DNA from: Streptomyces sp. SCL15-4
Lineage (GTDB): Bacteria > Actinomycetota > Actinomycetes > Streptomycetales > Streptomycetaceae
DNA: 64,000 nt
Direction of reading: 5' to 3'
Assembly (NCBI RefSeq): GCF_033366695.1
Contig: NZ_JAOBTQ010000001.1
Location: 5,766,001-5,830,000 of the forward strand
The notes beneath the pieces are model-generated. The model saw nothing but the letters and a program-made list of their open reading frames with translations. It made no database searches and was not told where the DNA came from. Position 1 is the first letter of the stretch. Each line of letters begins with the position of its first letter. This document shows positions 1 through 10,279 of the stretch, one piece after another. The position numbers and the translations under genes are program-made.

Positions 1-1845
1 GCCGATGACGAACTCCCGGACCAGATAGGGCGTCCCGTCGGCGTGGCCGTGATCGAGGACGCGCGCGATCCCGGGATGGACCGGCTCGCGGAGCCGCCGG
101 CAGAGGTCCGCGAACGCGGCGGGGGACGGCCCGGGCGGATACCGGCGCACCACGACGAGGGCGCCGCCCTCCCGCGTGTCCTCCGCCAGCAGGCGCGTGT
201 CCCCGGCCGGCCCGACCAGCCGGTACCGGCCCGCGAACAGCTCCTCGGCGCCGTCCGCCGACAGCCGGCGCACGCTGTCCCGAAGGACCGTGGCGAACGG
301 ATCGTCCTCCACGGCCGTCCCCGCGCCCCGCGCGGACGGCACCGACGCCTCGAACTCGCCCGGCGCCCGGCCCGCCCTGCGGTCGATCAGCCCGCCGATC
401 CGGCCGAGGAGTTCGGTGGTGCGGTGGCGCTCGGTGCGGGGCAGGCCGAGCAGCAGCAGCTCGCGGACGCCGTCCCGGAACGCGTAGGCGCCGGGCGGGG
501 CGCCGGGCACGGTGGTGAGCATGCCGCTGAGGACGACCTCGGCCAGGTGCCGGGGCCGCGGGTCCGGTTCGACCGCGGCCTGTACCAGGCGCATGACCGG
601 CAGATCCGGGCGCCCCACCGCGAGATGGCCGGCCAGCCGGACCGCCTCGGGCGAGGCGGTCGCCCGGAACCGCAGCACCAGCTCCTCGGCGCCGAGCCGC
701 CCGACATCGGTACGGTCCTCGGCGTCCGCCGGCAGCGGACGGCCCAGCTCGGCGACCGCGGCGGGGAACTCGGCGCCGCCCGGCGTGGCCAGCAGCCCGG
801 CCCAGTGCGCCAGCCACCGCGGCTCCGGCTCCAGCACGGGCAGCGGCACGGCCCCGCGCGAGCGGACCTCCTCGTCCGGCCCCGGCTCGGCGCGCCGCTC
901 GTACGGCGTGAACGCGAGCGCCGCCGAGGGCGCCACGGGATGCGGGGCCGACAGGGTGCCGGGGCCGGCGGGCAGGGCCGTGTCCCGCCACAGGTGCTCC
1001 GGCAGCGGCTGTACGACGGCCAGCGGCATCCGGCGCGCCCAGCGGTGCAGGGTGGCGAACCAGCGCTCGCCGGCGGGGCCCTGACGCCACTGCGGGCCCG
1101 TGCAGTCGCTGATCAGGAGCGTGACGGTACGGCCGTCGGCGGGAGCGGGCGGGCCGGGGCCGCGTACTCGGCCGTCGGCGTCCGCGCGGTACAGGCCGAT
1201 CGTGCGGAACACGCCCGACTCGCCGAGCACCGTGTGCAGTTCGCGCACCAGCGGGCGCCAGACCGGCATGGTCGGCCCGGCGTCGTACACCAGGTTCAGC
1301 CGCAGCCAGCGCTCCCGGGCGGGCCGCAGCACCGGCAGCCACCACGCCGGGTCGGCGCCCAGCCGGGCGATGCGGTCGGCGGTGGCCCGCTCGTCCAGCT
1401 CCCGGCCCACGGGCGCCTCCGTCCGGCGGGCCAGCGGACGCAGCGCGCGGTGCAGGGCGAGCCGGTGGCGCAGCATCGGGGGCGCCGGTGCGAGGAGCGT
1501 GGCGTGGGGCCGGGCCGCCGCCGGGGCGGGCCGCCGGGCGGGCAGGTGCAGGGGCACCCGGGCGGGCGGCGCGGGAGGCCGGTCGGGCTGCGGCGGCGGC
1601 CCGGGCGGGGGCGCCGGCGGCTGGTGCGGGGACGGCGGTCGCGCGGGCGGCGGCGCGGCCGGGGCCGGTGGGGTGCGGGCTCCGGCCTCCTGTCCGGTGG
1701 TGCCGGTCTGCGGCCGCATGTGCCGGGCCAGCCACAGCACCTCGGCCAGTTCCAGCGGGGTCGGGCGCGCGCCGTCGGCCGCCCGGGCGAGCACGTCGGC
1801 CAGGCGGACCACGAGGTCCGGGGCGCCGGCCGGCTCAGAAGACAT
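1..1845 (-). CDS. vWA-like/SAV_2336-type protein with C-terminal protein-kinase-like domain (3' part off window)
   Basis: Open minus-strand frame of 615 codons running off the window at base 1. The ATG at 1845 overlaps the MoxR gene stop by 11 bp. The N-terminus (about residues 9-40) resembles the SAV_2336 N-terminal domain. A proline-rich linker follows to about residue 110. About residues 183-270 look like a degenerate von Willebrand factor A fold, with a DxGxT in place of the DxSxS metal site and a later strand LLISDCTG. From about residue 538 the sequence resembles a protein-kinase N-lobe (YRLVGPAGDTRLLAED, then HPGIARVLDHG and YLVREF). The usual beta-3 lysine position reads VVVRR, so an arginine may replace it. 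The rest of the kinase-like domain lies outside. It is the presumed vWA partner of the MoxR ATPase. The frame and context are firm; the domain calls rest on motif reading. Confidence 0.8.
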   Translation of the reverse strand, partial: MSSEPAGAPDLVVRLADVLARAADGARPTPLELAEVLWLARHMRPQTGTTGQEAGARTPPAPAAPPPARPPSPHQPPAPPPGPPPQPDRPPAPPARVPLHLPARRPAPAAARPHATLLAPAPPMLRHRLALHRALRPLARRTEAPVGRELDERATADRIARLGADPAWWLPVLRPARERWLRLNLVYDAGPTMPVWRPLVRELHTVLGESGVFRTIGLYRADADGRVRGPGPPAPADGRTVTLLISDCTGPQWRQGPAGERWFATLHRWARRMPLAVVQPLPEHLWRDTALPAGPGTLSAPHPVAPSAALAFTPYERRAEPGPDEEVRSRGAVPLPVLEPEPRWLAHWAGLLATPGGAEFPAAVAELGRPLPADAEDRTDVGRLGAEELVLRFRATASPEAVRLAGHLAVGRPDLPVMRLVQAAVEPDPRPRHLAEVVLSGMLTTVPGAPPGAYAFRDGVRELLLLGLPRTERHRTTELLGRIGGLIDRRAGRAPGEFEASVPSARGAGTAVEDDPFATVLRDSVRRLSADGAEELFAGRYRLVGPAGDTRLLAEDTREGGALVVVRRYPPGPSPAAFADLCRRLREPVHPGIARVLDHGHADGTPYLVREFVIG

Positions 1846-2866
1846 CGGACTGCGCGCTCTGCCCCAGATACGGCATCAGCCGCTCGGCCAGCCGGTCCAG
1901 GGAATCGGCGTCCAGGCCGGCGGAGCGGGCCAGGTAGATCGCGTTCAGCAGCTGGTCGGTGGCCAGCTCGCCGGCGCCCGACCGGGTCAGGAAACGGTCG
2001 ATCAGGGTCCGCGCGTAGGTGTCGGGCTCGCCGAGGTGGGCGCGGACGATCCCGGCGAGGTGCCGGTCGTCCGGCTGCCTGAGGTGCAGCGTGACACAGC
2101 GGCGCAGGAAGGCGGGCGGGAACTCGCGCTCGCCGTTGCTGGTGAGGACGACGAACGGGAAGGCCCGGCAGCGCACCCGGCCGCGGACCACCGGCACCCG
2201 CTCCTCGGCGCCGTCGGCCAGCACCTCGGCCACGCCGTCCGGGGTCAGCCGGGAGGCGCGCACCAGCTCGGGGATCTCGTACTGGCCCTCCTCCAGCACG
2301 TTCAGCAGGTCGTTGGGCAGGTCGAGGTCGCTCTTGTCGATCTCGTCGATGAGCAGCGCGCGGGGCCGGGCGTACGGCAGCAGCGCGGTGCCCAGCGGGC
2401 CGAGCCGCAGATGGTCCTCGATGCCCGACCCGTCGGCCGCGGCTTCCGCCCGCCGCTCCGTGGCCGCCTCCTGCCGGGCCGCGTACAGCCGGGAGAGCGG
2501 GTCGTACTGGTAGAGGCCGTCGTGCAGCGTGCTGCGGCTGGTGATGTTCCAGCGCAGCACCGGGCCGAGCCGCAGCTCCCGGGCCACCGCGTACGCCAGC
2601 GAGGACTTGCCGGTGCCGGGCGGGCCGGTGACCAGCAGCGGGCGGCGCAGGTAGAGGGCCGCGTTGACCAGCTCGACCGTCTCCTCGGTGGCCTGGTAGG
2701 TCTCGGCGCGGTGGGCACGGTCGGGGGAGACGGCGGCGGTGCCGGCGGCGTCCGGGGCCGGCAGCACCGGCCCGCCGTCGAAGGCCCGCCAGGGCGGCGG
2801 CGCGGGCAGCTCGGTGATGCCGTCGTGCGGCTCGTTCGTACCGGTGTAGACGGGCCACAGGGGCAT
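1835..2866 (-). CDS. MoxR-type AAA ATPase
   Basis: 343 aa. Walker A GPPGTGKSS at residues 81-89, Walker B ALLIDEIDK at 170-178 and a sensor/arginine-finger stretch LTSNGEREFPPAFLRRC give a MoxR/RavA-like AAA+ ATPase. It should remodel partner proteins at the expense of ATP and, as for MoxR proteins generally, act with a vWA-domain protein, which is the next gene and overlaps it by 11 bp. The ATG at 2866 starts MPLWPVY; longer upstream reading in this frame lacks family character. It is encoded 41 bp downstream of the VMAP-like gene, in one apparent operon. The C-terminal lid ends MPYLGQSAQSDVF. The assignment to the superfamily is secure. The cellular substrate is unknown. Confidence 0.92.
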   Translation of the reverse strand: MPLWPVYTGTNEPHDGITELPAPPPWRAFDGGPVLPAPDAAGTAAVSPDRAHRAETYQATEETVELVNAALYLRRPLLVTGPPGTGKSSLAYAVARELRLGPVLRWNITSRSTLHDGLYQYDPLSRLYAARQEAATERRAEAAADGSGIEDHLRLGPLGTALLPYARPRALLIDEIDKSDLDLPNDLLNVLEEGQYEIPELVRASRLTPDGVAEVLADGAEERVPVVRGRVRCRAFPFVVLTSNGEREFPPAFLRRCVTLHLRQPDDRHLAGIVRAHLGEPDTYARTLIDRFLTRSGAGELATDQLLNAIYLARSAGLDADSLDRLAERLMPYLGQSAQSDVF

Positions 2867-2907
2867 GGGCTCTTCTTCTCCGTGGGGGCGGTCGGGCGTG
2901 CGGTCGG

Positions 2908-4698
2908 TCAGGCGACGGGCGAGTGCAGGCTCGCGCCGGTCTCGGGGAAGCAGCGCGGGTCGTCCCAGAGCAGCTGCAGGTGTCTCGCCCAGTGCCCCTC
3001 GGGATCGTCGGCGGCCTCCGCGGTCAGCCGCAACTCCATTACATGGCGTGGCAGTTCGGCGGGCGGCACGTCGGCGACGGAGGCGGTGAGCCGGTCCAGG
3101 AACGCGGTGCCGGGACAGGACGCGTCCGGGCCCTCGCGGCCGGAACCGGACGCGTCCGGGGCCGGGCCCTCGGCGCCGGAAGCCTCCTGCCGCGCGGTCC
3201 CGGCGCGGTGCGCGTCCCCGTGCACCGCGCACGGAGCGCCGCCGCGGGGCCACAGCAGGACCGGCACGGGCACGGTGAGACCGACCTCGAAGTGCGGGCG
3301 GGCCACCGTGGGCGGGGCGGCGAAGCCCGCCAGCCGGGCGTCGCCGTCCCACAGCCGTTTGCGCAGGCTCGGCGGGCGCTCCCGGGTGCCGCACTCCACG
3401 CGGTGCACCTCGACCCCGCCCCCGGTGTCCAGCTTCTGCCACTTCTTGCGCAACTGGTGGCGCAGCCGCCCGCTGTGGTGACGGGCGCGGTCGGTGACCA
3501 CCAAGGGGTAGGCGCAGCCCAGGGGCGTGCTGTCGTCCGCGCCGCACTCCCAGTGCGCCACCGCCTCGTTGAGCCACTCGCGCGGCAGCACGAACGTCAC
3601 CAGCTCGTCGGCGTCCGGGGCGAGGTGGGCGACGGCCTCGTCGATGCGGCTCTGGACGTAGGCCCGCACCGCGGTGCGGGGCAGCCGGCGGGCGCCCACC
3701 GGCCGGCGCCGGCCGTCGCGGTACGCGGACACCTCCACGGTCACCTGGTCGGGTCCGGCGCCGCTGTGGTCGATCTCCACGACCACCGGCGACCAGGCGG
3801 GCCCGGCCGGGCCGTCCGGCGCCGCCGGCGGCGGTGGCACCCGCTCTCCGCCGAGCAGTTCGCCGAGCCGGTCGGTGAACCGGCGCACCGCCTCCGGGTC
3901 CGGGACCTCCCAGCGCACATAGTCCGCCGCCGCCCGCAGGGTCGCGAAACCGCCCGGAGGCAGGGGCGGTCCGAAGGGGCCCACCGCGTCCAGGTACAGC
4001 CGGTTCGGATCGCCCGCCGCGCCGGGGCCGGCCTCGGCGCGGCGCAGCAGGTCGTACAGGCGCGGACGGCCGTCGTCGCCGGGGTCCGGGCCGGGCACCA
4101 GCTCGCCCAGGTCGGGCCAGTACCGGGTCAGCACGTCCAGCGGCAGCATCCGGCCCTTGCGCACCTCCGGCGACGAGCCCAGGGCCGCGGTGACCATGCC
4201 GGCCACCCTGCCGTCCGGGAGCGTCGCCGCCGCACCGCTGAACCCGTCCGCGATCGGCTGGCCGTGCCCGTGCCAGGCCACCAGCTCCAGCCACTCGCCC
4301 GCGATCAACTGCGGTGAGACGGCCCGGTATTCGGCGAGCGTGCCCTCGTCGTAGCCCTCGGGGAAGCCGTAGGCGACCAGTTTCGGGTACGGCTCGGTGT
4401 ACGCGGCGCCGGGCGGGGCGAAACGGGCCGGGGCGAGCGGAATGTCGTGGTCCACCGCGAGTTCGAGCACGGCCACGTCGCCGGGGTCGGTGACCCCGCC
4501 CGCCCAGCCGCCGTGGGCGACGACCGTGGCGGGCACCTCGCCCAGCTCCCTGGCGTGCGGAAAGCTCACGGTCACCGCGGCCCGGTCGACGGCCCGGACG
4601 ACGTGGGCGCAGGTGAGCACCCGGCGGCCGGTCACCAGGAAGCCGGCCCCCACCGCGTCGCCGCAGGCGATCCGGGCGTGCCAGGCGGCGCCGCCCAT
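2908..4698 (-). CDS. VMAP-type protein: trypsin-like peptidase domain plus VMAP-C domain
   Basis: 596 aa. Residues about 1-205 form a trypsin-like fold with the triad in TCAHVV (His), GDVAVLEL (Asp) and DGFSGAA (Ser). The motif before the serine reads GFSG, not the usual GDSG. A short helical middle section is followed by a region matching the VMAP C-terminal domain pattern: VVVEID, FVLPREWLN, PLGCAYPLVV, VPVLLW, and near the end PRHVMELRL and LLWDDP. VMAP is the vWA-MoxR-associated protein of predicted ternary conflict systems, thought to sense or transmit a signal to the effector. The TGATG junction with the upstream gene indicates translational coupling; a TTG three bases further upstream is in frame but the ATG at 4698 is preferred. 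No signal peptide is seen, so it is probably cytoplasmic. An alanine/glycine-rich insert around residues 480-530 is species-specific-looking. Confidence 0.85.
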   Translation of the reverse strand: MGGAAWHARIACGDAVGAGFLVTGRRVLTCAHVVRAVDRAAVTVSFPHARELGEVPATVVAHGGWAGGVTDPGDVAVLELAVDHDIPLAPARFAPPGAAYTEPYPKLVAYGFPEGYDEGTLAEYRAVSPQLIAGEWLELVAWHGHGQPIADGFSGAAATLPDGRVAGMVTAALGSSPEVRKGRMLPLDVLTRYWPDLGELVPGPDPGDDGRPRLYDLLRRAEAGPGAAGDPNRLYLDAVGPFGPPLPPGGFATLRAAADYVRWEVPDPEAVRRFTDRLGELLGGERVPPPPAAPDGPAGPAWSPVVVEIDHSGAGPDQVTVEVSAYRDGRRRPVGARRLPRTAVRAYVQSRIDEAVAHLAPDADELVTFVLPREWLNEAVAHWECGADDSTPLGCAYPLVVTDRARHHSGRLRHQLRKKWQKLDTGGGVEVHRVECGTRERPPSLRKRLWDGDARLAGFAAPPTVARPHFEVGLTVPVPVLLWPRGGAPCAVHGDAHRAGTARQEASGAEGPAPDASGSGREGPDASCPGTAFLDRLTASVADVPPAELPRHVMELRLTAEAADDPEGHWARHLQLLWDDPRCFPETGASLHSPVA

Positions 4699-5078
4699 CA
4701 ACGGGCCCCGGGCTCCGGCCCCGACGCGCTCTGTCCCGGCACCACGGGCGCCGGTCCGGTCCGTTCCGGGGACCAGCTGAGCTTCACCACCAGGTGGCCC
4801 TCCGTCGATCCCTTCGCGATGACCGCGCCGGCCTCCGCGGACAGCCGTACGCCGAACTCGATCTCCACCGCGTCGGGGCGCAGGCTGCCGTCCCGGAAGA
4901 CCCGCAGCGCCGCTGCCGCCGCCGCCCGTACGCCGTCCAGGGCGCCCTCGAAGGTGCGCGCGGCCTGTGCCGGGCCGTCGCCGCGCGAGACGAGGCGGGC
5001 CCCCGACCTCGTGTTCACGCCGTCCACCACGACGAGCGCGCCGTCCTCGGTTCTGAACTCCACCAGTCCGTCGTCCAT
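4698..5078 (-). CDS. trypco1 (CU044_2847-family) trypsin-co-occurring domain protein
   Basis: 126 aa. It begins MDDGLVEFRTEDG and carries VEIEFGVRLSAEAGAVIAKG followed by a beta strand HLVVKLSW, the signature of the CU044_2847 family, also named trypsin-co-occurring domain 1. These small proteins sit beside trypsin-domain genes in conflict loci and are thought to act as adaptors or regulators of the peptidase. The ATG at 5078 has a GGGGGAG ribosome site 8-10 nt upstream; an earlier in-frame start at 5126 has no such site. Its stop overlaps the VMAP gene start by one base, so it is the first gene of the four-gene cassette. Function is inferred from family and context only. Confidence 0.82.
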   Translation of the reverse strand: MDDGLVEFRTEDGALVVVDGVNTRSGARLVSRGDGPAQAARTFEGALDGVRAAAAAALRVFRDGSLRPDAVEIEFGVRLSAEAGAVIAKGSTEGHLVVKLSWSPERTGPAPVVPGQSASGPEPGAR

Positions 5079-5304: not shown

Positions 5305-8300
5305 ATGAGCACAGGACCAGTCAGACGCGGGACGGCGCTGCTGGCGGCGGCGCTGGTGAGCACCCTGCTGCCGGCCGGCCCGGCGGTCGCGCGGGCGGCC
5401 CCCGCCGCCGCGCCCGCACCGGCCGCCGCCACCCCAGCGACCGTCACCCTGGTCACCGGCGACCGGGTGACCGTCACCGACCTCGGACACGGCAGGCGGA
5501 CCGTCACCGTCCGGCGGCCCCAGGGCGCCACCGGGGCCGTCCGCATCCAGCGGAGCGACGGGCACCTGAGCGTCGTACCGGACGAGGCGCTGCCGTATCT
5601 GCGGGCCGGCACCCTGGACCGGCGGCTGTTCGACATCGGTGGGCTGATCCGGCAGGGGCTCACCGACACCGAGGCGGACGCGCTGCCGCTGATCGTGGCC
5701 TACGGCAAGGGCGTCCGGACCGCCACCCCGGCCGGGACGAAGCGGACGCGAGCGCTGCCCAGCCTGCGCGGGGCCGCCGTCGCCGCGGACCGGGGCCGTA
5801 CCTTCTGGCGGTCGTTCACCCGCGGCGACGGCGTCGACAAGGTGTGGCTGGACGGGCGGGTGACGGCCGACCTGGCGCTCAGCAACGCCCAGATCGGCAC
5901 GGCGGCGGCCTGGGACGCGGGACTGACCGGCGAGGGCGTCACCGTCGCCGTCCTGGACACCGGCGCCGACCTCGGCCATCCCGACCTGGCCGGCCGGGTC
6001 GGCACCAGCCGCAGCTTCGTCGAGGGGGAGGAGGTCGCCGACCGCAACGGGCACGGCACCCACGTGGCCTCCACCGTCGGCGGCAGCGGCGCCGCCTCCG
6101 ACGGCACCGAGAAAGGGGTCGCGCCCGGCGCCACGCTCGCCGTCGGCAAGGTGCTCGGCGACCAGGGCTCGGGCAGCGAGTCCCAGATCATCGCCGGAAT
6201 GGAGTGGGCCGCCCGGGACGTGCGCGCCCGGATCGTCTCCATGAGCCTCGGCTCGACGGAACCGAGCGACGGCACCGACCCGATGGCCCAGGCGGTGAAC
6301 ACCCTCTCCAGGCAGACCGGGGCGCTGTTCGTGGTCGCCGCCGGCAACACCGGCGCGCCCTCCTCGATCGGCTCGCCCGGCGCCGCCGACGGCGCCCTCA
6401 CCGTCGGCGCGGTCGACTCCGCCGACCAGCCGGCCTACTTCACCTCCGCCGGACCCCGCTCCGGCGACAACGCACTCAAACCGGACCTCTCCGCGCCCGG
6501 CGTCGACATCCTCGCCGCCCGCTCCCGGCTCGCCCCCGGCACCGGCGACTACACCTCCATGAGCGGCACCTCCATGGCGACCCCGCAGATCGCCGGCGTG
6601 GCCGCGCTGCTCGCGCAGAGGCATCCCGACTGGAGCGGCGCCGAACTGAAGGACGCGCTGCTGTCCACCTCCCGGCGGCTCGACACCTCCGCCTACGTCG
6701 TGGGCGCGGGCCGGGTGAGCGTCCCCGACGCGGTGCGCGCCGACCTCACCGCCACCGGCAGCGCCGACCTCGGCTTCCACCGCTGGCCCTACGACACCGA
6801 CCGGCCCGTCACCCGGACCCTCGCCTACCGCAACACCTCCGGCACCGGCATCCGGCTGAAGCTGTCCGTCCAGGGCGCTCCGGACGGCGTGGTCACCCTC
6901 GCCGGTGACACCCTCACCGTGCCCGCGCACTCCACCGCCACCACCACCGTCACCGCGGACGCCGCCCAGGCGCCCGCCGGCGAGACCACCGGCCGGGTCG
7001 TGGCCTGCGCCGAGGACGGCACGCCCCTCGCGCACACCGTGTTCGGGCTGGTCAAGGAGGAGGAGCGGTACACGCTCACCGTCCACGTGAAGGACCGCGA
7101 CGGCGCCCCGGTGCCCGCCGACCTCACCGTGCAGCGGCTCGCCGCGGGCGAGGACGCCCGGCCCGCGCACGTCGGTGACTCCGGCACCCTGCGACTGCGC
7201 CTGAAGCCGGGCACCTACACCCTCGCCACCTTCCTCGACGTGCGCGGCGCCCACGGCGCCGACTCGCTCGGCCTCGGCTTCCTCACGGCCCCCGAGATCC
7301 GCCTCGACCACGACCAGGACGTCACCCTCGACGGCCGGAGGCTGCGCGAGGTGAAGGCCGCCGTCGACCGGCGCACCGAGCCCCGCCAGCTGCTGATGGA
7401 GTACGACCGCCAGGCCGACGGCGCCGACCTGTTCGGCGCGGTCCAGGTCCCCCTCGCCTACGACAGCGTCTTCGCCGCGCCCACCGCCAAGGTCACCCGG
7501 GGCACCTTCGAGTACCGCACCGTGTGGCGGCTGGCCAAGCCCCGGCTGGAGGTGAAGGGCGTCGGCGAGGCGACCGTCCAGCCGGGCGGCACCCTCGTCG
7601 AGGGCCGCACCCGGCTGCCGCTGGCCGACGTCGGCGACGGGCCGCTGACCGGGGTGTCCGGCAAGGCGGTCCTCGCCCGCCTCGCCGCCGGCGCCGACCC
7701 GGCCGCGCTCGCCCGGGCCGCCCAGGACGCCGGCGCCAAGGCCCTGTTCGTCACGGACGAGGCACCCGGCCGGCTGATGGCCTGGTGGGGCACGGACGAC
7801 AACGCCGACCGGCCGCTGACGGTCGCCACCGTGAACCGCGCCGACGCCGCCCGGCTGCGCGCGGCGGGCCGGGTCGACATGACCGGCACGGCCGACTCGC
7901 CGTACGTCTACGACCTGTCCGAGGGCCACCCGGGCGCGATCCCCGACCGGGACCTCGCCTACGCGCCCGGCAAGCGTCGGCTGGCCGCCGTACAGGCGCG
8001 GTTCCACGCGGCCGAGCCGTCAACCGGCGGCGAGTTCCGCTACTCCCTGACCGGCACCTTCTCCCTCGGCATCGGCTTCCAGGAACGCGTCTTGCTGCCC
8101 GCCGAGCGCACCGACTACGTCTCCACCGGCCCCGGCCAGCTGTGGCACGAGTCCGTCACCGTCCGCGACGGCGCGCTGGAGGAGCGCGGCGGGCTGGTCG
8201 AGTACACCGGCGGCACCCGGCCGGAGCTGGACTGGTTCCGCCCGGTGTGGCACCCGTGGCTGGGCACCGGGCTCGGCTGGGGACAGCAGCGCGCCGGCGA

Positions 8301-8925
8301 CCGGCTCCGGTTCAACACCCCCGGCTGGGGCGACTCCGGGCCCGACCACACCGGCTTCGGCGACGTGTGGAGCGACGGCAGCGGCCTCGGCCAGACCACG
8401 GCCGTCTACCTGGACGGCACCCTCGTGGACCGGAACACCGGCTCCACCGCCTACGTCTTCGGCGCGCCCGCCGACGAGCACACCTACAAGGTCGTCACCG
8501 ACACCGCCCTGGACGCCGCCCGGTGGCGGCCCGCCACCCGCGGCCACGCCGAGTGGACCGTCCGGTCGGCGGCCGTCGAGGAGGACCGCTGGACGTACCT
8601 GCCACTGGTCAACCTCGCCTTCGACCTCGACACCGGCCTGTCCGGCCGGGTGCCCGCGGGCCGGCGCGTGCCGGTCGGGATCGCCGCCGGGTACGTGGCG
8701 GGCGCGGCCGGCACCGGGACCCTCGGCGGCGGCCGGCTGGAGGTGTCCTACGACGACGGCACCACCTGGCGGACGGTCCCGCTGACCGCCGGCCGGGGCG
8801 CCTCCTGGCACGGCACGCTCACCGTGCCGCGCGGCACCGCCCACCTCTCCCTGCGGGCCTTTGCCCACGACGACCGGGGCGGCTCGGTCACCCAGGAGAT
8901 CATCCGGGCGGCGGCCGTCGGATAG
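5305..8925 (+). CDS. Large secreted S8 family serine peptidase (subtilase)
   Basis: 1206 aa, exported. The N-terminus MSTGPVRRGTALLAAALVST followed by an Ala/Pro-rich stretch is a signal peptide, and a propeptide-like region follows. The catalytic Asp is in VLDTGAD (about residue 218), His in NGHGTHVA (about 250), the oxyanion Asn in AAGNTG and Ser in SGTSMATP (about 423). The remaining ~750 residues are beta-rich accessory domains, including a PA-like segment near residues 800-870. Such proteins degrade extracellular protein. The ATG at 5305 lies 4 bp after a GGC-rich weak ribosome site. Reading further upstream only extends into the intergenic region. It is convergent with the carboxyltransferase gene, and their 3' ends overlap by 26 bp. 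No functional link to the adjacent conflict cassette is evident. Confidence 0.93.
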   Translation: MSTGPVRRGTALLAAALVSTLLPAGPAVARAAPAAAPAPAAATPATVTLVTGDRVTVTDLGHGRRTVTVRRPQGATGAVRIQRSDGHLSVVPDEALPYLRAGTLDRRLFDIGGLIRQGLTDTEADALPLIVAYGKGVRTATPAGTKRTRALPSLRGAAVAADRGRTFWRSFTRGDGVDKVWLDGRVTADLALSNAQIGTAAAWDAGLTGEGVTVAVLDTGADLGHPDLAGRVGTSRSFVEGEEVADRNGHGTHVASTVGGSGAASDGTEKGVAPGATLAVGKVLGDQGSGSESQIIAGMEWAARDVRARIVSMSLGSTEPSDGTDPMAQAVNTLSRQTGALFVVAAGNTGAPSSIGSPGAADGALTVGAVDSADQPAYFTSAGPRSGDNALKPDLSAPGVDILAARSRLAPGTGDYTSMSGTSMATPQIAGVAALLAQRHPDWSGAELKDALLSTSRRLDTSAYVVGAGRVSVPDAVRADLTATGSADLGFHRWPYDTDRPVTRTLAYRNTSGTGIRLKLSVQGAPDGVVTLAGDTLTVPAHSTATTTVTADAAQAPAGETTGRVVACAEDGTPLAHTVFGLVKEEERYTLTVHVKDRDGAPVPADLTVQRLAAGEDARPAHVGDSGTLRLRLKPGTYTLATFLDVRGAHGADSLGLGFLTAPEIRLDHDQDVTLDGRRLREVKAAVDRRTEPRQLLMEYDRQADGADLFGAVQVPLAYDSVFAAPTAKVTRGTFEYRTVWRLAKPRLEVKGVGEATVQPGGTLVEGRTRLPLADVGDGPLTGVSGKAVLARLAAGADPAALARAAQDAGAKALFVTDEAPGRLMAWWGTDDNADRPLTVATVNRADAARLRAAGRVDMTGTADSPYVYDLSEGHPGAIPDRDLAYAPGKRRLAAVQARFHAAEPSTGGEFRYSLTGTFSLGIGFQERVLLPAERTDYVSTGPGQLWHESVTVRDGALEERGGLVEYTGGTRPELDWFRPVWHPWLGTGLGWGQQRAGDRLRFNTPGWGDSGPDHTGFGDVWSDGSGLGQTTAVYLDGTLVDRNTGSTAYVFGAPADEHTYKVVTDTALDAARWRPATRGHAEWTVRSAAVEEDRWTYLPLVNLAFDLDTGLSGRVPAGRRVPVGIAAGYVAGAAGTGTLGGGRLEVSYDDGTTWRTVPLTAGRGASWHGTLTVPRGTAHLSLRAFAHDDRGGSVTQEIIRAAAVG

Positions 8926-10279
8926 CGCGGGAGCGGGGGCGGTCCGCGGGTCCCACGATGCCCCGGACCACCCCCAGCTCCACCAGGTCCTGCGGCCGGA
9001 TGCGCAACTGCCCGGCCGTCGGCTCCGCCTCCTCGGGCGGACGCTTGAGGATCATCGCCGCGAGTTCGGGAGCGATCACCGAAAAGTAACTGTCCGGCGT
9101 GGCCCAGGTGTTGCCCGGCGCGGCCAGCGCCAGCGCGCCGCCCGAGCCGCCCTCGCCGATCACCAGGGTCGTCAGGGGCACCCGAGCGTCGGCCACCGCC
9201 CCGAACACCTCGGCGATCGCGGCCCCCGCACCCTGCCGCTCCGCCTCCGCGCCGTTGGCGGCGCCCGGGGTGTCCACCAGCGTCAGCACCGGGATGCCGA
9301 GCCGGTCCGCGAGCCGGATCAGCCGGGCGGCGGTGCGGTACCCGGCGGGCCGGGTCGCCGTCCCCGTCTGCGCCGCGAACGCCACGCCGCGGCCGTCCCG
9401 CTCGCCGAACCCGCACAGCATCCCGCCGGGATCCGTGCCGCCGCACCGGTCGCCGCCGATCAGCACCCGGCGGTCGAAGAGGGCGTCCAGATAGGCGTGC
9501 GCCCGCGGCCGCCCGGGGTCCCGGGCGCGTACGACGGCCTCCCAGCCGGTGGCGGGCAGCCCGGCCCCGCCCAGGGCCGGCGGCACGGGTGCCTCGGCGG
9601 CCGGTGCCGTCAGCAGCCGCAGCCAGGTGCCGAGCACCTCCCGCAGCCGCTCCGGCTCCACCACCGCGTCCGCCGCGCCCGCCGCCACCTGCGCCTCGGC
9701 GGTGTACGCGGCCGGGTCGGCGTCCGGCGGACGGACCCGGGAGCCGGCGAAGCCCACCTGGGCGCCGGGCAGGGCCAGCACCACGTCCGCGCCCGCGCCG
9801 AGCGTGGCCCAGCCGCCGCCGGTCGTCGGGTCCCTGAGAACCGCGATCTGCGGCAGTCCCGCCCGCCAGGTGAGCGCGGACTCGCGGGCCACCCGCTGGA
9901 GCTGGGTGAGCGCGAGCATGCCCTCCTGCATCCGGCTGCCGCCCGTCGCGATCAGCGGCACCACCGGCAGGCGCTGCGCGCGGGCCCGGGTGTACGCCGC
10001 CACCAGCCGGTCCCCGGTGCGTTCGCCCAGCGAGCCGCCGAGGAAGCCGAACTCGAAGGCGATCAGCACGGCCTCGGTGCCCGCGACGCGCGCGGTGCCG
10101 CAGACGACCGACTCCACCTCGCCGGTGCGCTCGGCGGCGCGGGCGCGCGAGGCGTCGTAGCCCTGCCAGCCCAGCGGGCCGTCCGGTGCCGACTCCGCGT
10201 CCGGCGCGGAAAGTTCACGGAAGCTGCCCGGGTCGGCCAGCAGCGCCAGGACTTCCCGCGCCGAGCGCCGCTCAGGCAT
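8900..10279 (-). CDS. Fused acyl-CoA carboxylase carboxyltransferase (beta+alpha)
   Basis: 459 aa. The N-terminal half has the AccD-like crotonase core (FEFGFLGGSLGERTG, GGSRMQEGML), the C-terminal half an AccA-like core (LVDTPGAANGAEAE, VIGEGGSGGALALA). It therefore combines both carboxyltransferase subunits, which move CO2 from biotin to an acyl-CoA. It lacks the N-terminal zinc ribbon of bacterial AccD, and no biotin carrier or biotin carboxylase gene is adjacent. The ATG at 10279 overlaps the matB stop by 8 bp, so the two are co-translated. With MatB it presumably handles malonyl- or methylmalonyl-CoA supply. The acyl-CoA substrate cannot be read from the sequence. In S. coelicolor the equivalent pair is, as I recall, SCO2445-SCO2444. 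Confidence 0.9.
   Translation of the reverse strand: MPERRSAREVLALLADPGSFRELSAPDAESAPDGPLGWQGYDASRARAAERTGEVESVVCGTARVAGTEAVLIAFEFGFLGGSLGERTGDRLVAAYTRARAQRLPVVPLIATGGSRMQEGMLALTQLQRVARESALTWRAGLPQIAVLRDPTTGGGWATLGAGADVVLALPGAQVGFAGSRVRPPDADPAAYTAEAQVAAGAADAVVEPERLREVLGTWLRLLTAPAAEAPVPPALGGAGLPATGWEAVVRARDPGRPRAHAYLDALFDRRVLIGGDRCGGTDPGGMLCGFGERDGRGVAFAAQTGTATRPAGYRTAARLIRLADRLGIPVLTLVDTPGAANGAEAERQGAGAAIAEVFGAVADARVPLTTLVIGEGGSGGALALAAPGNTWATPDSYFSVIAPELAAMILKRPPEEAEPTAGQLRIRPQDLVELGVVRGIVGPADRPRSRAIRRPPPG

Follow-up and report, generated by a model that had tools for sequence, protein, structure and literature searches.

A predicted trypsin/Trypco1-type VMAP-MoxR-vWA conflict operon of Streptomyces with an intact protease, a mostly dead vWA tail and repeated loss at one chromosomal site

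Previous work by Kaur et al. 2020 (PMC7159879) defined the VMAP ternary conflict systems, along with Trypco1 and the modules found in the tails of the vWA proteins, among them serine/threonine kinase-winged helix-turn-helix and cyclase-Band7-HAD arrangements that often lack catalytic residues. In the model given there, the VMAP peptidase releases effectors fused to the vWA protein. Later, Dore et al. 2024 (PMC10907252) suggested the reverse flow, in which the vWA protein senses and the VMAP protease is the effector, and Altae-Tran et al. 2023 (PMC10910872) reported such modules near type III CRISPR loci; what is said here of these three papers refers to the portions of them on which we drew. 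The subject of the present work is a four-gene operon of this kind on the minus strand at the left edge of a 64,000-nucleotide stretch of DNA from Streptomyces sp. SCL15-4 (G000:C1:5766001-5830000, hereafter the window). A search of the open-licence PubMed Central literature found no experimental study of a Streptomyces member, in keeping with what a first-pass annotation of the window had stated, and no experimental test deciding between the two published models.

That annotation had proposed a vWA-MoxR-VMAP ternary conflict cassette with a Trypco1 protein and had suggested a hidden Markov model search as a check. When run, the VMAP-C, Trypco1 and SAV_2336 N-terminal models matched well above their cut-offs (6.2e-41, 3.1e-25 and 7.4e-130, respectively), and the family assignment stood. 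In the Pfam scan the VMAP-C model scored 141.2 bits against a cut-off of 27, and the VMAP protease domain matched Trypsin_2 at 4e-10; by profile searches this genome has a single VMAP-C match and a single SAV_2336_NTERM match. The gene order, VMAP then MoxR then vWA on one strand with Trypco1 beside a trypsin-type VMAP, is that of the family. Compared by eye, the MoxR N-terminal segments WPVYTG and PPWRAF fit the published motifs WxhapG and PsWRxa. Asp188 and Asp247 of the vWA protein, which we place at vWA strands 1 and 4, are invariant in 26 aligned sequences, and an N-terminal ELAEVLW (Glu32, Glu35, Trp38) is conserved, each of its spacings being one residue shorter than in the published [D/E]xxx[D/E]xxxa. 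We are nearly certain that the operon is a VMAP-type vWA-MoxR ternary conflict system of the trypsin/Trypco1 subtype, a kind of system already described, as predicted by Kaur et al. 2020, and ordinary in kind for the genus. What is new here is a fixed site with repeated loss, a live protease alongside a mostly dead vWA tail, and the HtrA/Deg-like character of that protease.

The four genes lie in one direction in the order first proposed, all on the minus strand, and the junctions are exactly as first read. The Trypco1 stop and the VMAP start have one base in common (TGATG at 4700-4696), the VMAP end (2908) and the MoxR ATG (2866) are separated by a 41-bp gap, and the vWA ATG (1845) overlaps the MoxR end (1835) by 11 bp. 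The vWA gene had been called a truncated vWA-like gene. Its vWA identity held but the truncation did not, as it is the window edge that cuts the gene: it is complete to G000:C1:5763418 (L009:9418-13845), and its product has 1,475 amino acids, 860 of them beyond the edge. The idea that it is a natural pseudogene was thus ruled out.

With the VMAP systems of Kaur et al. (PMC7159879) the operon shares the VMAP-MoxR-vWA order, Trypco1 beside a trypsin-type VMAP, the MoxR N-terminal motifs, the two-Asp vWA and the multi-module tail; the fixed site beside the mreB/mbl-like gene, the repeated loss, the lone Trypco1 and the HtrA-like protease come from the present analysis and are not described in the portions of that paper used here. 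The systems of Thiohalocapsa PB-PSB1 that are diversified by diversity-generating retroelements (PMC10907252) likewise have a trypsin-VMAP, MoxR, vWA, a Trypco1 neighbour and a protease proposed as effector. Their vWA proteins carry C-type-lectin domains diversified by the retroelement, whereas no lectin domain is among the families matched by the vWA protein described here.

The comparisons used two sets of loci. The close protease-VMAP subtype was judged by hand to be present in 30 of 150 sampled genomes of the genus, from 46 genomes matched, and is degraded in two (G101, G128); 29 loci were fetched, the G017 contig being too short, and the protein alignments comprised 26, including this one (L051, L063 and L069 left out). 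Alignment A2 was made without L048, A5 without L043, L048, L050, L057 and L059, and A4, A7 and A8 used part of the loci. The second set, the named loci, is the best 80 of at least 169, with strains shared with the sampled genomes. At L153 the vWA gene seems to be missing at first sight, owing to an assembly gap that falls within it. VMAP-C as such was found in 124 and Trypco1 in 117 of the 150 genomes, this one included, as against none and one of 14 control genomes.

The His-Asp-Ser triad of the VMAP protease is intact in all 26 aligned loci, this one included, and at all 80 named loci. In true trypsins Asp194 is the zymogen-activation switch. In the VMAP protease Phe directly precedes the catalytic Ser at every one of the 26 aligned loci, and this switch is therefore absent. 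By structure search the domain has a Deg/HtrA/MarP-like fold. It differs from HtrA/Deg and MarP (Rv3671c) in being fused to VMAP-C and in having no PDZ match by Pfam, the chain outside the protease domain having been barely probed by the fold search. The first ~90 residues of the protease also gave a weak match to AVAST type 1 Avs1b (3.3e-4 and 2.1e-5), far under the NCBIfam cut-off; the Avs1b models have ~1,900 positions and belong to a system different from the VMAP operon. When the VMAP is divided into three parts, mean identity among the aligned loci is lowest in the middle region. Ratios of non-synonymous to synonymous change (dN/dS), simple Nei-Gojobori estimates for five pairs of loci, were 0.41-0.77 for residues 201-300, the highest of the three VMAP parts each time, and the middle region is a putative sensor.

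The vWA tail presents a different picture. In full it consists of a pseudokinase, a BTAD/AfsR-like module (BTAD at 5.4e-7 by Pfam, with an AfsR-like stretch at 2e-26), two modules without family match, and a dead HAD. Going by order, the stretch at about residues 915-1245 probably corresponds to the modules that Kaur et al. describe as cyclase-like and Band-7; Pfam and PDB profiles gave no support for that identity. Weak kinase-family matches cover residues 590-651, and the family profile of the kinase module matches StkP/PknA/PknB. At this locus the kinase Lys, the HRD Asp and the DFG Asp are all missing, and the catalytic Asp is missing in 20 of 21 kinase modules (20 modules plus that of L062), being kept only in L060. 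All 20 HAD modules have Gly in place of the nucleophile; among 53 HAD matches at the named loci, none of the 52 readable has Asp there. Other vWA tails contain AAA-TPR (L068), EAD2 (one member) or NaeI, the last in an off-site vWA-kinase-NaeI protein encoded at L060:5989-9312. Aligned to 1ev7, this NaeI domain has Val at the position of the active-site Lys of PD-(D/E)xK.

The dead modules are kept nonetheless, dN/dS being below 1 for both HAD (0.24-0.41 in all four pairs with HAD) and kinase (0.20-0.64 in all four pairs with kinase). A value below 1 was obtained for every part compared in all five pairs, this locus being a member of two of them; the BTAD value for L009/L052 was left out as a misalignment, L052 having no such module. 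In sum, a live protease and a mostly dead tail favour the protease as the candidate catalytic output and the vWA tail as a candidate sensor or decoy.

The model of Kaur et al. (PMC7159879) draws other conclusions from such tails: VMAP would sense, MoxR and vWA would rearrange, and the protease would cut the vWA protein, freeing C-terminal modules that act as decoy or dominant-negative effectors. The reasoning is published, the fast-changing VMAP middle region suits a sensing VMAP, and purifying selection on dead modules is in its favour. So is the great variation in tail architecture. Presence of modules was scored by BLAST with this locus's own modules, so that diverged ones may be missed, and by Pfam for the L062 kinase; on this basis the five tracked modules give 11 combinations among 26 loci, and the cassette tree requires at least 4 changes for the kinase, 6 for BTAD, 6 for the cyclase-like, 5 for the Band-7-like and 3 for the HAD module. 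Tails can differ between close relatives: L052 lacks the kinase and BTAD, and L042-L044 lack BTAD, while the shared vWA and HAD parts are 70-87% identical. Most modules, however, are without catalysis, including the sole NaeI module seen, with its Lys to Val change, and we regard release of the tail modules by the protease as possible but doubtful.

The operon mostly keeps to one place in the chromosome. It lies between an mreB/mbl-like gene (MreB_Mbl, 4e-108) and a carboxyltransferase gene in 22 of the 25 subtype genomes that have both flanks on one contig; the other three are the degraded G101 and G128, and G053, where the operon is elsewhere. At least one of the two flanking genes is nearby at 78 of the 80 named loci, the exceptions being L141, on a 3.7-kb contig, and L148, where only a subtilisin gene adjoins and the contig ends soon after the match. 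Of 148 mreB-like matches, the 115 with the highest scores entered the site survey, along with most carboxyltransferase matches. No partner was on the contig for 31 of the 115, and 59 had no subtype VMAP. Among the latter, 28 operon-free genomes have both flanking genes in the same order, the matches 131-4,746 bp apart; in 28 more this order is reversed, with a spacing of 1.7-10.3 kb; and in 3 they are far apart.

Some operon-free sites bear traces of a former operon. Remnants were found at 8 of the 26 operon-free or degraded sites read, namely 25 of the 28 same-order sites (G002, G021 and G032 left out) and G101; with a threshold of E <= 1e-3, the remaining 18 yielded none that was accepted. 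G124 has a 59-residue VMAP piece, HAD pieces are left at G067 (146 residues) and G040 (109 residues), and an open lone Trypco1 stands at five sites (G013, G033, G101, G110 and G117). In G117 it is accompanied by a 40-residue VMAP stub, and no VMAP-C match was found anywhere in that genome. In the degraded G128, half of VMAP and a piece of HAD are left, along with a Trypco1 that is divided between two matches. A 39-residue Trypco1-like match in L094 was dropped as chance. At L086:1488-4031 (G013) the lone Trypco1 is followed by an unrelated frame, named by eye as FAD-oxidase-like, that replaces the ternary genes.

Mapped onto the flank tree, the 20 rows with the operon and the 27 without it require at least 15 changes, 9 of them forced by well-supported branches; shuffled labels gave means of 15.4-15.6. 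Flank and cassette distances are correlated among 19 loci (r 0.41 for MoxR, 0.34 for VMAP; L009, L050, L059 and L061 lack flank sequence), and only 0 and 1 of 5,000 permutations, respectively, reached these values. We read from these sequence comparisons an old operon, probably inherited in part vertically, with frequent loss at one site; regain by exchange is possible.

The neighbourhood raises the question of whether the operon, instead of being an immune system, has a regulatory part in housekeeping or development, as in the maturation of the cell wall or of spores. An mreB/mbl-like neighbour, kinase-like and AfsR-like modules, and a flank-cassette correlation of the sort expected from partly vertical inheritance are all in line with such a role. 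But 148 of 150 genomes have an mreB-like gene matched at E <= 1e-100, as against 30 with the subtype, and the presence of the operon is patchy and unclustered on the flank tree. Repeated loss and module turnover suit a costly conflict locus better, and a housekeeping role is in our view quite unlikely. The mreB/mbl-like gene itself, whose GTG lies ~160 bp past the vWA stop, was considered as a fifth operon member and rejected because its match occurs whether the operon is present or not. It is very improbable that this copy is a decaying relic of a conflict system, functionless in this strain. Several relatives have decayed at the same site, but here four frames are intact, the triad, the Walker motifs and the MIDAS (metal-ion-dependent adhesion site) Asp residues are in place, and selection has been purifying in all parts compared.

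Of the 80 named loci, 79 have Trypco1. Among 24 loci that have it, 23 show an overlap of 1 or 4 bases between the Trypco1 and VMAP genes; the gap at the 24th may be a matter of start-codon choice. The dN/dS of Trypco1, 0.03-0.25 in four pairs, was lower than that of any other part in three; in the fourth, L042/L043, slightly lower values were found for the vWA, protease and HAD parts. All 28 genomes with a non-degraded subtype VMAP have at least one Trypco1 somewhere, a weak association given the base rate of 117 in 150. Trypco1 also occurs with other trypsin genes. In an IMG/VR contig (L179:7929-12464) a Trypco1 frame precedes a trypsin-nSTAND1-WD40 gene, the trypsin part having been read by eye, in which VMAP-C is not among the 25 best Pfam families listed; in G007 (L098) its neighbour is a frame in which both trypsin and an NB-ARC-like domain were matched. 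These pairings make the protease domain the apparent constant partner of Trypco1, which may serve as an inhibitor or a folding partner of the protease. A PDB profile search with Trypco1 gave nothing significant (best E 1.5).

These observations suggest an arrangement in which the resting complex would be off. Trypco1, together with docking of VMAP-C, would hold an HtrA-type, conformationally gated VMAP serine protease in check. An invader product would be met by the fast-changing VMAP middle region and the vWA tail, acting as surfaces for binding or as decoys, upon which the MIDAS-type vWA domain, with the MoxR ring, would spend ATP to remodel the complex and turn the protease on. The ensuing proteolysis would cut invader proteins, or would send the infected hyphal compartment into dormancy or kill it. 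We hold this mechanism, with the gated protease as output, restraint by Trypco1 and VMAP-C, and release by MoxR and vWA, tentatively and with a little less than even confidence in the whole. The first-pass annotation had likewise made the trypsin domain the effector, and the comparative data lean that way, the protease being intact throughout and most vWA-borne enzymes dead. Such a flow matches the alternative of Dore et al. (PMC10907252); it is not the proposal of Kaur et al. (PMC7159879), the work that the annotation had cited.

Several points weigh against a gated protease as output. The dead modules also fit the dominant-negative effectors of Kaur et al. Not every tail is wholly dead, since the kinase of the off-site relative L060 retains Lys, His, Asp and Asp, and the L061 and L062 kinases keep the Lys with the catalytic Asp lost. 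Trypco1 is missing beside 3 of 24 on-site cassettes (L051, L065 and L067) and is thus not a strict local antitoxin; those genomes carry Trypco1 genes elsewhere. The structure model of Trypco1 is poor (mean predicted local distance difference test score 64.1), and a lone Trypco1 may reflect only which operon end was deleted. A further arrangement, which we consider unlikely, is an integrated-decoy array. The tail, with its dead PASTA-type kinase, AfsR-like regulator and HAD, would be invader bait kept by selection, the HtrA-type protease would be the sole executioner, and Trypco1 would be a dedicated inhibitor that could outlive it after deletion of the rest of the operon.

The coordinates of the operon are collected in Table 1. 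The operon is adjoined by a divergent subtilisin-like gene (window 5305-8925; Peptidase_S8 1.1e-61), which was rejected as a part of the system, being divergent and gained or lost independently of the operon in relatives. On its other side the site is bordered by the carboxyltransferase gene at window 8900-10279 (ACCA 2.1e-46, Carboxyl_trans 1.6e-30); 107 of 150 genomes have a match to it at E <= 1e-100.

Table 1. Features of the operon, in window coordinates.
Feature	Position	Strand	Remarks
Trypco1 gene, CU044_2847 family, 126 amino acids	4698..5078	-	PF19493 3.1e-25, NF041216 2.2e-22; first in operon
VMAP gene, 596 amino acids: HtrA/MarP-like protease domain, variable middle, VMAP-C	2908..4698	-	
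VMAP catalytic triad span: His32 (4605-4603), Asp74 (4479-4477), Ser154 (4239-4237)	4237..4605	-	
VMAP middle region, residues 201-316, putative sensor	3751..4098	-	fastest-changing VMAP part
VMAP-C domain, residues 317-581	2956..3750	-	PF20028 6.2e-41
MoxR AAA+ ATPase, 343 amino acids	1835..2866	-	AAA_5 4.8e-9; Walker A GPPGTGKS, Walker B LLIDEID
vWA gene, residues 1-615 of 1,475	1..1845	-	open reading frame open at window edge
SAV_2336 N-terminal (vWA) region, residues 31-493; MIDAS-type Asp188, Asp247	367..1755	-	NF041121 7.4e-130
Start of pseudokinase module (about residues 525-735; 525-615 inside window)	1..273	-	weak kinase-family matches

The two published models assign sensing and killing to different parts of a VMAP ternary system. 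The subtype described here offers a clean test of these models, with one protease residue and one small candidate inhibitor. Natural relatives lack one or two tail modules with the shared vWA/HAD parts still so alike (~70-87% identity), and a single site with many losses provides natural relatives with and without the operon.

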